This document shows, piece after piece, positions 16,375 through 58,638 of a stretch of 64,000 nucleotides of DNA. The stretch is taken from positions 1,481,912 to 1,545,911 of the forward strand of contig NZ_LT985808.1 in the NCBI RefSeq assembly GCF_900291465.1, given 5' to 3'. Numbering within the stretch: position 1 is the stretch's first letter; each line of letters begins with the position of its first letter. The DNA is from Bacteroides sp. Marseille-P3684. Its GTDB lineage: Bacteria > Bacteroidota > Bacteroidia > Bacteroidales > Bacteroidaceae. A program made the position numbers and the translations under genes. The notes beneath the pieces are model-generated. The model was given only the letters and a program-made list of their open reading frames with translations, did no database searches and was not told the origin of the DNA.

Positions 16375-16410
16375 GTCTGTTTGCATACTGAAAGCAATTC
16401 CTCCTTTTTC

Positions 16411-16960
16411 CTTGACGGATTTCCCGAAAATCCTCTTTTCAGCTAACGCGTACTTTTGAAAAATCGGGCAAAGTAGGCTTTTTTAGGAATATTCATGCGA
16501 AACAGACTGCATGGATATGTAGAAGAGCGGGCAAAAATGAATAATTATACTGCGAAACAATATTGTTTGGGAGGTCAAACACTTGTGTTTGGTGCGTCAA
16601 ACAATATTGTTTGACGAGTGAAACAATATTGTTTCATCCGTCGAAGTCAAATGTTCGGAGGGTAGAAGACTTGATTTATGAATTTGAAACTCTGTTTTAG
16701 GAATATTCACCTCTGGTTTGTTCCCGGAAGCGTTCAATATGGATGTGTGAAATGGAACGGTTTATTTCCCATCCGTCTTTCTTTCGGATGCCTACAAGGT
16801 GATTTGGTGATATTCTTGACGGCAGACGGACGGATACGGCAGCAAACTGTATTTTGCGAATCGCCTGAAATTTCATTTTTTGCGCACAGCCTCGCATTTG
16901 GACCTAAAGAAGGATATTGTAGAGCGGTTCGTTTGACACTTTGACAATTTGATATTTTGC
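16411..16960 (+). repeat. dispersed intergenic element, copy 1 (palindrome array plus conserved flanks)
   Basis: One of three related intergenic elements. It has, in order: CTTGACGGATTT (16411), CTAACGCGTACTTTTG (16443-16458, with a TACTTTTG promoter-like box), a palindrome array (16554-16657), the block TATTTTGCGAATCGC (16850-16864), and an end block around CGTTTGACACTTTGACA (16930-16946). The 16-bp block CTAACGCGTACTTTTG is identical in copy 3. The spacing from the array to the TATTTTG block is 215 bp here, 194 and 192 in the others. No protein of consistent frame is shared by all three, so I treat it as a non-coding repeat. It precedes a lipoprotein gene. Confidence 0.75.
16554..16657. repeat. 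phased palindrome array, copy 1
   Basis: Four 16-bp palindromic units start at 16554, 16576, 16598 and 16620, exactly 22 bp apart: GAAACAATATTGTTTG, CAAACACTTGTGTTTG, CAAACAATATTGTTTG, GAAACAATATTGTTTC. Six-bp spacers vary (GGAGGT, GTGCGT, ACGAGT). A fifth degenerate unit, CGAAGTCAAATGTTCG, keeps the register at 16642. Confidence 0.9.
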
Positions 16961-20592: not shown

Positions 20593-21345
20593 TTACGATT
20601 TCCCCGGTACGTACTTGACGGGCTTCAGTTCCTGCGTATCCGTCACCTGATGATGGATTTTGAAGGTGGGGAAAGACATCTTCCGGCTATTCCCCGGTGT
20701 ATAGATGCACAGGATGCCGCTATAGGCTGCCGAGGTGACAGTGGTGTCGCGGAGGAAACAGAGGGTATGTCTGTCACTGGACTCTGTAGTGGTGTAGGTG
20801 ATGTCAAAATAGCCCAGGCTGTCGCGTTGGACGTGGAGGCGGACCTTCGGCGAGGTGTTTCCGCGCATGAAGGCTTCGCTTTGGGCGAGCAGGCGGATTT
20901 TCTTTCCGGTCTGACAGTAGAAATAGATGCAGTCCTTTGCACCGCCAATCTGGAGGAAATAGCCGTTGAGCGGACCGTTCAGGTCAGCGGAAGTCGACAT
21001 CAGGTAGAGGCGTGCATGATTACGAGCGGAAGGGTTGAAGGAGCAATTCACCTGCATGACCCATCCGGTACGGTCGGGAGTACGGAGCGGCGTGTAGAGA
21101 CAGGCACTTCCGGTGCGGAGGCTGTCGTTGAGGCGGATAGTCCCGTTGTCCGTCAGACGGAATTTTCCAGTCTCTCCCTGCCATGAGAGCGTGTCATAGG
21201 CTGTTGCTTCCTCAATGACTGCATGCCAGCCGGTATCTTCCGTCGGTGATGCTTCCTCCGGTTCTTCCATGAATACCGGAGGCGTGCATTGGATGAAAAT
21301 GAGCGCAACCACGCCCAGCATAAGGAGAAAACAGGTCTGTTTCAT
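20593..21345 (-). CDS. lipoprotein with a beta-sandwich-like domain
   Basis: 250 residues. The start at 21345 gives a lipoprotein signal peptide (KQTCFLLMLGVVALIFIQC, Cys20); an in-frame extension to 21492 is not plausible. The mature part has the Bacteroidetes pattern W-x-G-x-x-G-x-F-R-L...NGTIRLND...LYTPLR...W-x-M-Q-V-x-x-x-FNPS...R-x-Y-L-M-S...GYFLQIGG, which I recall from the N-terminal beta-sandwich domain of lamin-tail and surface proteins, but here it stands alone. Surface or periplasmic location is likely. The binding target is unknown. Confidence 0.65.
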   Translation of the reverse strand: MKQTCFLLMLGVVALIFIQCTPPVFMEEPEEASPTEDTGWHAVIEEATAYDTLSWQGETGKFRLTDNGTIRLNDSLRTGSACLYTPLRTPDRTGWVMQVNCSFNPSARNHARLYLMSTSADLNGPLNGYFLQIGGAKDCIYFYCQTGKKIRLLAQSEAFMRGNTSPKVRLHVQRDSLGYFDITYTTTESSDRHTLCFLRDTTVTSAAYSGILCIYTPGNSRKMSFPTFKIHHQVTDTQELKPVKYVPGKS

Positions 21346-38901: not shown

Positions 38902-38972
38902 AACACAAGGAGGGTGTGTCTGGAAAGGAGCAAGCTTGAAGCTTGTCCGAGCAGACACACCCTCCTTGTGTT
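38902..38972. terminator. bidirectional long-stem terminator
   Basis: Arms at 38902-38921 (AACACAAGGAGGGTGTGTCT) and 38953-38972 (AGACACACCCTCCTTGTGTT) are perfect over 20 bp. An inner stem CAAGCTT-G-AAGCTTG (38931-38945) lies in the loop. It terminates the lipoprotein operon (minus strand) and possibly the HD gene or a small RNA on plus. Confidence 0.88.
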
Positions 38973-51947: not shown

Positions 51948-52146
51948 GTCACTAATATTGAATAAGCCCACGAATTTTTTCGTTTTTTTTAACCACGCCG
52001 GAAGATTGCTTCCCGTGTCCCGCACCTTCTCTCCTGGGGCGTCACGGACGCCTTTCCTTCCGTCCCTTGGTGTGCTCTTTTTTCATCCGACGTCTTTTTC
52101 TGCGGATGGGTGGAAATGACAAAAAGAAGTCATTTCCGTGCTTTTG

Positions 52147-52680
52147 CTTGACGGATTTCGTCAAACGTCTCTTTGTGGCTAACTCACATTGGACGATTTG
52201 CCGACAAACTAGCAGGCAATTGCTAAGAAAAGCAAACAAAACACCGGGAAAATGCCCTTCATTTTAGAAAACTATACACTTCGTTTTCGGAAGATTGACA
52301 AAACGTGCCCGGAACAATATTGTTTCGCGAGCCAAACAATATAGTTTGCCGCGTCAAACAATATAGTTTCCCCCTCCAAACACGATTGTTTCATGCCCGG
52401 AAGTCAAATCTTTGGAAGATGGAAGTAAAAAGTTCCGAGTTTCATTCGCTGGAAGGAGTGTGCTGTCAATAATTCGGATGGTAATAAAAAGCATGTATCT
52501 CTCCCGTGTTCGTTGTGAGAATGCTGCTGTTTCGCTGACAGACGAGCTTCCGTGCAACGAAAACAGCCGTAGCCGTGTCAAGTTGTATTTTGTGAATCGC
52601 TCCAGAATGCCTTCTTTGCGTTCCAACTCGTCCTTTGGTGCAAGAAATGCCTCTGTGGATGCCTTCGTTTGACATTTTGA
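52147..52680 (+). repeat. dispersed intergenic element, copy 2
   Basis: The same order of modules as copy 1: CTTGACGGATTT (52147), a diverged GGCTAAC block (52178), the palindrome array (52311-52414), TATTTTGTGAATCGC (52586-52600), and CGTTTGACATTTTGATA (52666-52682). The 3' flank also shares CTTTGGTGCAAGAAATGC-like words with copy 3. In the region just after the array, AAGTCAAAT...GGAAG is shared with copy 1. It precedes the lipoprotein at 52803. Confidence 0.75.
52311..52414. repeat. phased palindrome array, copy 2
   Basis: Five 16-bp units start at 52311, 52333, 52355, 52377 and 52399 with an exact 22-bp period: GGAACAATATTGTTTC, CAAACAATATAGTTTG, CAAACAATATAGTTTC, CAAACACGATTGTTTC and a degenerate GGAAGTCAAATCTTTG. 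Spacers are GCGAGC, CCGCGT, CCCCTC, ATGCCC. Units are more degenerate than in copies 1 and 3. Confidence 0.88.
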
Positions 52681-52762
52681 TAGTTGGGTAAGAAAACAGT
52701 TGGGCACGAAGCGGCGAGTGAAGAAAAGGATATTTTCAGGCAGGAGCTTCTCCGAAAAACAC

Positions 52763-57949: not shown

Positions 57950-58500
57950 CAAAGTGTCAAAACGTCAAACGAATCGTCTGAGAGTGCCCTTCCTCGCACC
58001 CGAAGACGAGTCGGTGAGCAAAGAAGCGATTCTGGAGCGATTTGCAAAATACACTTTGTCGGGAGATGGCAAACATCGCTTTCAGAGCGCAGTGAGATAT
58101 TCCCTGTAAGTGACTTTGTGGTGCGTGCGGTTTCAGAATATGGTGCGATTTAATAGTTGGAAAAGTGATGCGTCCGCGTTCTTTTTGGAGAGCAGTTGTC
58201 AGAAATTATTCTTCCGTTTTCTCTTTTCCTTACATCGACGGACGAAACAATATTGTTTCATCGGTCAAACAATATTGTTTCACGTCCCAAACACAAGTGT
58301 TTGACGACTCAAACAATATTGTTTGGCGCGTGAAAAACAAGTGTTGGATACTAAGAAACGTGAAATGAATGGGCGCTTCAGAAGTTTAGTGTGAAGCAGA
58401 ATTAACCTTTCTTCGCTAGTTTGCTCGATTTTGCAAAAGTACGCGTTAGTTGAAAAGGTGGATTTGGTAAATTGTGTAAGGAGAATTGCTCTTTTGGCTC
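57950..58500 (-). repeat. dispersed intergenic element, copy 3 (inverted)
   Basis: On the minus strand the modules come in the same order as in copies 1 and 2: CTAACGCGTACTTTTG (58449 down to 58434, identical to copy 1), the palindrome array (58347 to 58244), TATTTTGCAAATCGC (58052 to 58038), and CGTTTGACGTTTTGACA near 57971. The array-to-TATTTTG distance is 192 bp. The next gene downstream in this orientation is trkA. Confidence 0.75.
58244..58347. repeat. phased palindrome array, copy 3
   Basis: Units start at 58244, 58266, 58288, 58310 and 58332, again exactly 22 bp apart: GAAACAATATTGTTTC, CAAACAATATTGTTTC, CAAACACAAGTGTTTG, CAAACAATATTGTTTG and a degenerate GAAAAACAAGTGTTGG. Spacers are ATCGGT, ACGTCC, ACGACT, GCGCGT. 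Differences between palindrome halves are often compensated, e.g. CACAAGTG in place of CAATATTG. Confidence 0.9.
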
Positions 58501-58638
58501 TCGGTTTGTCAACGGGAATGTGTAGGGGGAAAGGGGAATGTGTGGGAGTGGCGGAGCGGAAAAACAGGACACGGGCGATGCAGAGGCTGGGCTTGCGCCC
58601 TGTATCGTCCGTGTCTATCATCTTTGGACCGATGCCGG

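Follow-up and report, generated by a model that had tools for sequence, protein, structure and literature searches.

The three palindrome arrays in the window, by which we mean the whole 64-kb stretch of DNA analyzed here, are real and represent a broader class of palindrome arrays with phased units. Cooperative binding of predicted dimeric proteins on one helix face is the most likely explanation for them. Rows with the same spacing and different words were found in related genomes, which suggests an undescribed DNA-organising system.

Geometry and symmetry of the arrays

A sequence-only reading of this DNA had placed three arrays at 16554, 52311 and 58244, each with a strict 22-bp period. 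All three were confirmed by their unit starts (Table 1), by Tandem Repeats Finder, which called a period of 22 for each, and by shuffling. The half-site pattern AAACANNNNTGTTT had 10 matches in the window against 0.03 expected, nine inside the arrays and one at 21329, and 10 matches were reached in none of 100 shuffles of the window. A window scan blind to sequence returned three arrays at period 22 and none at other periods from 16 to 40. The 4 to 5 units reported per array correspond, in each, to four good units followed by a degenerate fifth, with a unit size of 14–16 bp and spacers of 6–8 bp. CACTTGTG and CACAAGTG, previously treated as separate forms, proved to be one unit seen on opposite strands, whose centre (TT/AA) is not symmetric. 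The window also holds a ~70-bp self-inverted repeat at 38902–38972 (85% identity) that is unrelated to the arrays.

Table 1. Positions of the arrays and their carrier elements in the window
Feature	Position	Strand	Unit starts	Description
Array 1	16554..16657	+	16554, 16576, 16598, 16620; degenerate fifth at 16642	Four palindromes and one degenerate unit, period 22 bp
Array 2	52311..52415	+	52311, 52333, 52355, 52377; degenerate fifth at 52399	GGAACAATATTGTTTC first, then CAAACAATATAGTTT-type units; fifth degenerate
Array 3	58244..58347	-	58244, 58266, 58288, 58310; degenerate fifth at 58332	Four palindromes and one degenerate unit
Element 1	16384..16957	+		~570-bp dispersed repeat: left arm, array, variable stretch, right arm; homology to other genome copies
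Right-arm motif of element 1	16848..16871	+		TGTATTTTGCGAATCGCC type; genome position 1498759, +
Element 2	52115..52690 (ends approximate)	+		Right arm at genome 1534495, +
Element 3	57954..58520 (ends approximate)	- (reversed)		Right arm at genome 1539941, -; 57957–58053 matches 52584–52680 reversed

The 10 proteins encoded near the three arrays were assigned by Pfam to a P-type ATPase, an AraC regulator, two Nuo subunits, PagL, TrkA and Dxs, with three lacking a Pfam match, and no Rep gene was among them. Plasmid iterons have a period of ~22 bp and bind their protein cooperatively as direct repeats beside a rep gene. The arrays here differ in being palindromes at many chromosomal sites with no Rep among these 10 neighbors, and a 601-bp query found no similar DNA in plasmid sequences. 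CRISPR arrays combine 24–48-bp repeats with regularly sized, non-repetitive spacers, and the shorter units and spacers found here fall outside that definition. One tRNA was the only RNA family detected in the window at gathering thresholds.

The strict period claimed for the three arrays held across the genome. Among AAACA-type copies at distances of ≤40 bp, neighboring units lay 22 bp apart in 236 of 240 pairs, the exceptions being 23 bp in two, 18 bp in one and 29 bp in one. In most arrays the spacers vary in sequence, also as described, and the palindromes persist. Strict spacing within this element family is not special, because the ~190-bp stretch leading to the right arm of the carrier element hardly changes length either; the constancy would follow equally well from rare indels or from constraint on the element as a whole. 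The case for constraint on 22 bp depends on recurrence across species, not on the element family.

Paired substitutions had been taken as a sign of selection on symmetry, a claim that stood in part and is weaker than stated. Across 313 units and 8 column pairs, pair 7/10 was often changed on both sides (48 of 55 such units were complementary, mainly through one inherited variant), 10 of 16 such units were complementary in pair 8/9, and the other six pairs showed no complementary both-sided change. In Parabacteroides massiliensis, 9 of 15 units were mixed combinations of two half-site forms, and in G001, a genome of the same genus, 25 of 36 units were symmetric, a mild excess (Fisher p 0.04). 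These counts fit two half-sites that are read largely independently, and together they favor a dimer on duplex half-sites over a hairpin. Half-site alleles that combine freely, as in P. massiliensis, are what a dimer on duplex DNA would be expected to leave.

A dispersed element and a second palindrome family

All three window arrays sit within ~570-bp dispersed intergenic elements. The earlier description of 22-bp arrays in three intergenic elements was correct as far as it went; it had overlooked both the ~570-bp dispersed repeat as carrier and the other palindrome families with the same geometry. Window 16384–16957 matches further places in the genome, the best copies over its full length. 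A search of the genome with the right-arm pattern TGTATTTTGCGAATCGCCNGAGAA (≤3 mismatches) gave 89 places, 47 on the + strand and 42 on the − strand, against 0 for the control. The sequence around all 89 right arms was extracted for typing. Arrays of the AAACA-N4-TGTTT type were carried by 74 copies and GC-rich palindromes of the GTACGGACGCGTCCGTAC type by 12 (period 22 by reading in inspected copies), and three copies had no array; the last two counts come from an A/B/C typing in which C is the GC-rich type and whose poor A/B division was left unused. Element copies within sub-families diverge on average by 25–40%. A variable stretch of ~190 bp and near-constant length separates the last unit from the right arm. 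Measured from the start of the last unit in the 74 copies, this distance was 206–208 bp in 54, 205 or 209 bp in three, 227–231 bp in 12, in which the detected last unit lies one unit farther off, and ~10 bp away in five.

The right arm of many copies (e.g., window 16848–16957) can be read as a long imperfect inverted repeat, GCGAATCGCCYGAGAA ... TTCTCRGGCGATTCG, with its left half better conserved than its right half. Another dispersed GC-rich inverted repeat, GTAGGGGCGACCGGTCTGGTCGCCCGGTCC, lies just behind the right end of several elements (genome 945225, 1611469 and 1677160).

The 574-bp element had no match in 14 other same-genus genomes, and the two-unit AAACA pattern (≤1 mismatch) was absent from 60 other genomes, leaving this genome as the one in 61. 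At four syntenic sites that hold the element here, same-genus relatives were shorter by roughly 480–1100 bp, and at the cleanest site the relative's gap measured ~90 bp versus ~765 bp in this genome. Because relatives lack the element at these sites, it looks mobile. In viral contigs, neither the right-arm pattern nor the two-unit AAACA pattern was found, and a looser three-unit pattern gave three stretches of one repeat with identical spacers. The right-arm pattern also gave 0 matches in other genome contigs, a set from which this genome may have been excluded. The lone transposase noticed beside a right arm was IS1634, which was rejected as an autonomous partner. At right arm 965278 (−, L091), an IS1634-family insertion has its transposase immediately before the arm; other copies of the IS extend ~35 bp beyond the stop, so the IS had inserted into this C-type (GC-rich) copy.

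A second palindrome family in the same genome, AAGTATNATACTT, gave 126 two-unit matches at 22 bp (≤3 mismatches; control 0), and its arrays, among the matches listed, stand without the arms of the ~570-bp element. Eight of its arrays were inspected by reading: four have a core of these units with AAACAC-type units on both sides on the same lattice, two have no AAACAC-type units and two are intermediate. An array at 1.4438–1.4442 Mb has 17 AAGTATAATACTT units, among the matches listed, with almost identical spacers, and was apparently expanded by slippage.

The arrays could be internal parts of a mobile element only, as transposase or repressor binding sites or as inert cargo, with no use to the cell. 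Their position here inside a dispersed element with similar end words (TTGACA/TGTCA type, by inspection) and the four element-free syntenic sites in relatives agree with this, as does the BrickBuilt MITE of Porphyromonas gingivalis, which also holds a 23-nt repeat array according to the available sections of its description (PMC4596501). Against it, other species, and the AAGTATNATACTT family among the matches listed, have arrays that lack these arms, no autonomous partner was found, and no target-site duplication was established. The end words seen by inspection did not give a clean terminal inverted repeat. We consider this explanation possible but unlikely.

BrickBuilt and the REP/BIME repeats are the nearest named relatives of the arrays. 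In the available sections of its description (PMC4596501), BrickBuilt has 19 copies, each with a leader and a tail around a short-period array of 23-nt direct repeats with 0–6% indels and up to 22.8 units, and end repeats that resemble IS elements. The likeness lies in the order Bacteroidales, the intergenic position and the array between leader and tail. In contrast to those direct repeats (PMC4596501, same sections), the units here are 22-bp-period palindromes, mostly 4–5 per array, and the class extends beyond one species and one element; the word palindrome is absent from the text of that paper. Short repeats (3–31 bp) were left unannotated in the P. gingivalis genomes of PMC5771137, according to its available sections. 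The open-licence literature yielded no description of 22-bp palindromic arrays in Bacteroidetes, Bacteroides or Bacteroidales, which is a weak negative.

Recurrence of the 22-bp lattice in related genomes

Related genomes were scanned, blind to sequence, for chains of at least three palindromes with similar neighboring units at any period from 16 to 40. Arrays at 22 bp with other palindromes (AACGAACGTTCGTT, AACGCTTAAGCGTT, TGAACATATGTTCA and TTCACTCGAGTGAA) were found in four of five sampled genomes of the same genus and one of two of the same family. The totals over the window, G001, G006, G010, G011 and G023 were 21 arrays at 22, four at 23, two at 24, one at 21 and one at 18. Within the genus, G001 (400 kb) had four at 22 (AACGAACGTTCGTT), two at 23 and one at 24; G010 (120 kb) had one at 22; G011 (163 kb) had five at 22 and one at 23; and G006 (163 kb) had two at 22 and one each at 21, 23 and 24, those at 21 and 24 being AT-rich and that at 23 a plain tandem repeat. 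G023 (same family, 200 kb) had six at 22, including two whose spacers are identical or near-identical, and one at 18 that was scored twice. The scan returned no array in G009 (same genus, 140 kb), G026 (same family, 200 kb) or G065 (same order, 100 kb), and the 17 chains of G042 (same order, 62 kb) lay in a single AT-rich stretch, with none of them at 22. The E. coli K-12 control (200 kb) had none at 22 and one at 18, and five Markov simulations of 600 kb (G001 plus G023) produced no array at any period. Some scan matches have identical or near-identical spacers and are possibly plain tandem repeats (L252 and L255 at 22, L305 at 23).

Searched as two units with ≤3 mismatches, the G001 palindrome gave 22 matches among 15 same-genus genomes, all in G001 (control 0). 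Arrays with a 23-bp period and GGCACAAGTGTGCC-like palindromes were seen in G001 at L193:9503 and L198:17212, the latter flanked by inverted CCACTTTGTGCC / GGCACAAAGTGG.

The three-unit pattern AAACN6GTTT at 22 bp occurred in 33 stretches in ~85,000 species, 28 of which we take to be Bacteroidota and five to lie elsewhere. Four of the five outside Bacteroidota are tandem repeats with identical or near-identical spacers, as are some of the 28 (e.g., Tannerella and RUG11071). Two-unit matches in 12 of these genomes numbered 2 to 16 each (control 0–3), with 16 each in Parabacteroides massiliensis, Porphyromonas sp. COT-239 and Tannerella sp., 10 in Prevotella sp. UBA2746 and eight in Reichenbachiella; G431, G433, G434 and G436 had only 2–5 versus controls of 1–3. 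The AAAC half-site pattern was present in 2 of 393 genomes of the order, this genome included. The AAAC half-site was our choice, so these pattern counts are silent on other palindromes.

Spread of one array across genera, considered for L174 and this genome's own 148.7-kb array, was rejected, as L174 is 98.8% identical to a locus of this genome over 3,036 aligned bases. L174 lies on contig CALUGY010000033.1, which is filed under a Bacteroides MAG and matches this genome at 98.8% identity over 3 kb. No more two-unit AAAC matches were present in the rest of that bin, which may be mixed.

Irregular spacing in other copies, or symmetry lost in relatives, had been named as findings that would speak against function. 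In the arrays found, spacing was regular, with a few families at period 23 or 24, and it was the palindrome sequence that changed between species, not the symmetry. The original proposal of a dimeric protein aligned on one helix face is retained as the best reading, and the 22-bp period recurs elsewhere with unrelated palindromes.

Gene context, chromosome position and proposed role

Of the 47 stand-alone 22-bp arrays scored, 23 had convergent and four had divergent flanking genes, versus 47 and 52 of 205 background gaps drawn from G001 and G023 only (Fisher p 0.0006 for the convergent excess and 0.011 for the divergent deficit). The 47 comprised 25 loci of other Bacteroidota, the 11 of 13 G001 arrays amenable to scoring, three of six G023 arrays and eight arrays of the own second family. 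L174 was dropped because of its identity to a locus of this genome, and L210–L212 were left out with it as own species or genome, two of these arrays being counted through the own second family. Also left out were L167 (unassigned bacterium), L168 (edge), L162, L149, L160, L165, L176, L179–L181 and three G001 arrays with a 23- or 24-bp period, of which two lay in tandem gaps and one in a divergent gap. Adding these last three gave 23 convergent and five divergent of 50 (p 0.002 and 0.022), and removing own-genome arrays gave 18 and four of 39 (p 0.005 and 0.04). Genes were called with a crude codon score and some called gaps reached 2.5 kb, so the test was repeated with both gene gaps ≤500 bp, giving 17 convergent and two divergent of 35 (p 0.003 and 0.008). 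The ~570-bp elements, with 64 of 89 scored (nine convergent, 24 divergent and 31 tandem), showed no such 3'-end preference and did not differ from the background (p 0.16 and 0.08). The location of stand-alone arrays mainly at gene 3' ends, avoiding divergent promoters, speaks for a role in architecture, insulation or transcription blocking and not for promoter control.

Stand-alone arrays at convergent 3' ends would also suit RNA or cruciform hairpins acting as bidirectional terminators or 3' stabilisers, in which neighboring self-complementary units would form stems of ~16 bp with loops of 6 nt. Folding three arrays as RNA (four folds) gave values far below those of shuffles (z −5.2 to −6.9), but a low folding energy is inevitable for any repeated palindrome. 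Asymmetric units are uncompensated by their neighbors, with three same-orientation AAACATAGGTGTTT units in L146, mixed half-sites are common, and hairpins do not require a fixed 22-bp period over unrelated sequences. We judge hairpins to be an improbable explanation.

REP/BIME repeats are located at gene ends and are associated with gyrase and IHF. Convergent positions, at gene 3' ends, were seen for 23 of 47 stand-alone arrays versus nine of 64 large elements. In the available sections of PMC3733652, REPs are 20–40 bp long with a GTAG or CGTC end tag and occur as singletons, dimers and clusters. As with REPs (same sections), the arrays here are dispersed extragenic palindromes in high-copy families; they differ as loop-less 14–16-bp palindromes on a fixed lattice with no constant tag. 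Inspection of aligned units found no constant GTAG/CGTC end tag in AAACA arrays, and CGTC was present inside a C-type (GC-rich) array, not as a unit end tag. The arrays might, like REP/BIME in E. coli, serve as docking sites for a general factor of DNA topology or architecture (gyrase, IHF/HU), with sequence mattering little. They are palindromic, intergenic, present in many copies and at gene ends when stand-alone, and hypothesised roles of REPs include supercoiling, termination and stabilisation of mRNA (PMC3733652, available sections). This is very improbable in our view, as the strict lattice and the tightly conserved half-sites within a family imply sequence-specific reading, and each genome has several distinct palindrome families.

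We give an even chance to a reading in which the arrays are operators along which dimeric DNA-binding proteins line up on one helix face, serve in chromosome architecture or insulation, and have been spread in this genome by a MITE-like carrier. Each array would be a multi-operator site in which a dimeric, sequence-specific protein reads each 14–16-bp palindrome with one subunit per half-site (AAACA...TGTTT here). A period of 22 bp, about two helical turns, would set all dimers on one DNA face, so that neighbors could make contact and bind cooperatively. Within this genome and its relatives, further families have other palindromes on the same lattice, presumably read by related proteins with a diverged recognition surface. 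The AAACA arrays sit on the ~570-bp MITE-like element, which has multiplied, probably by transposition, to about 90 copies. The same lattice with unrelated palindromes is hard to explain without a partner protein of fast-changing specificity and fixed spacing. The lattice predicts a testable protein family and would open chromosome architecture or transcription insulation in a major phylum of the gut to study at the sequence level.

A broader reading, which we regard as doubtful, is a Bacteroidota chromosome-organising system in which every family of phased palindrome lattices has a fast-evolving dimeric protein of its own and different families mark different chromosome regions. Such a system would be a counterpart of MatP/matS and of SlmA or Noc, and we know of no factors like these in Bacteroidota. 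The matS/MatP, SlmA and Noc sites are short palindromes over part of the chromosome, occurring as single sites of one conserved sequence; here the sites are arrays, and no cognate protein was found. The reading draws on the distribution of two families in this genome, one avoiding the terminus and another dense there (among the matches listed). GC skew reverses at about 0.6 and about 2.4 Mb (sampled loci, 200-kb bins), placing the terminus at ~2.4 Mb. Only four of the 89 right-arm elements fall within 1.95–2.70 Mb (Poisson p 8e-5), an interval picked after viewing the data. Five of the 13 IS1634 copies (from 15 places above the cut-off, two copies being split) also fall there, so recent DNA turnover could explain the scarcity of old elements. 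Among the matches listed for 0–2.70 Mb, which were assumed complete to ~2.68 Mb, 17 of 35 exact AAGTATNATACTT-family arrays lie in the same interval (binomial p 0.012), and the two families differ there (Fisher p 3e-6, among the matches listed). The element family is depleted around the terminus, and the AAGTATNATACTT family, among the matches listed, is not.
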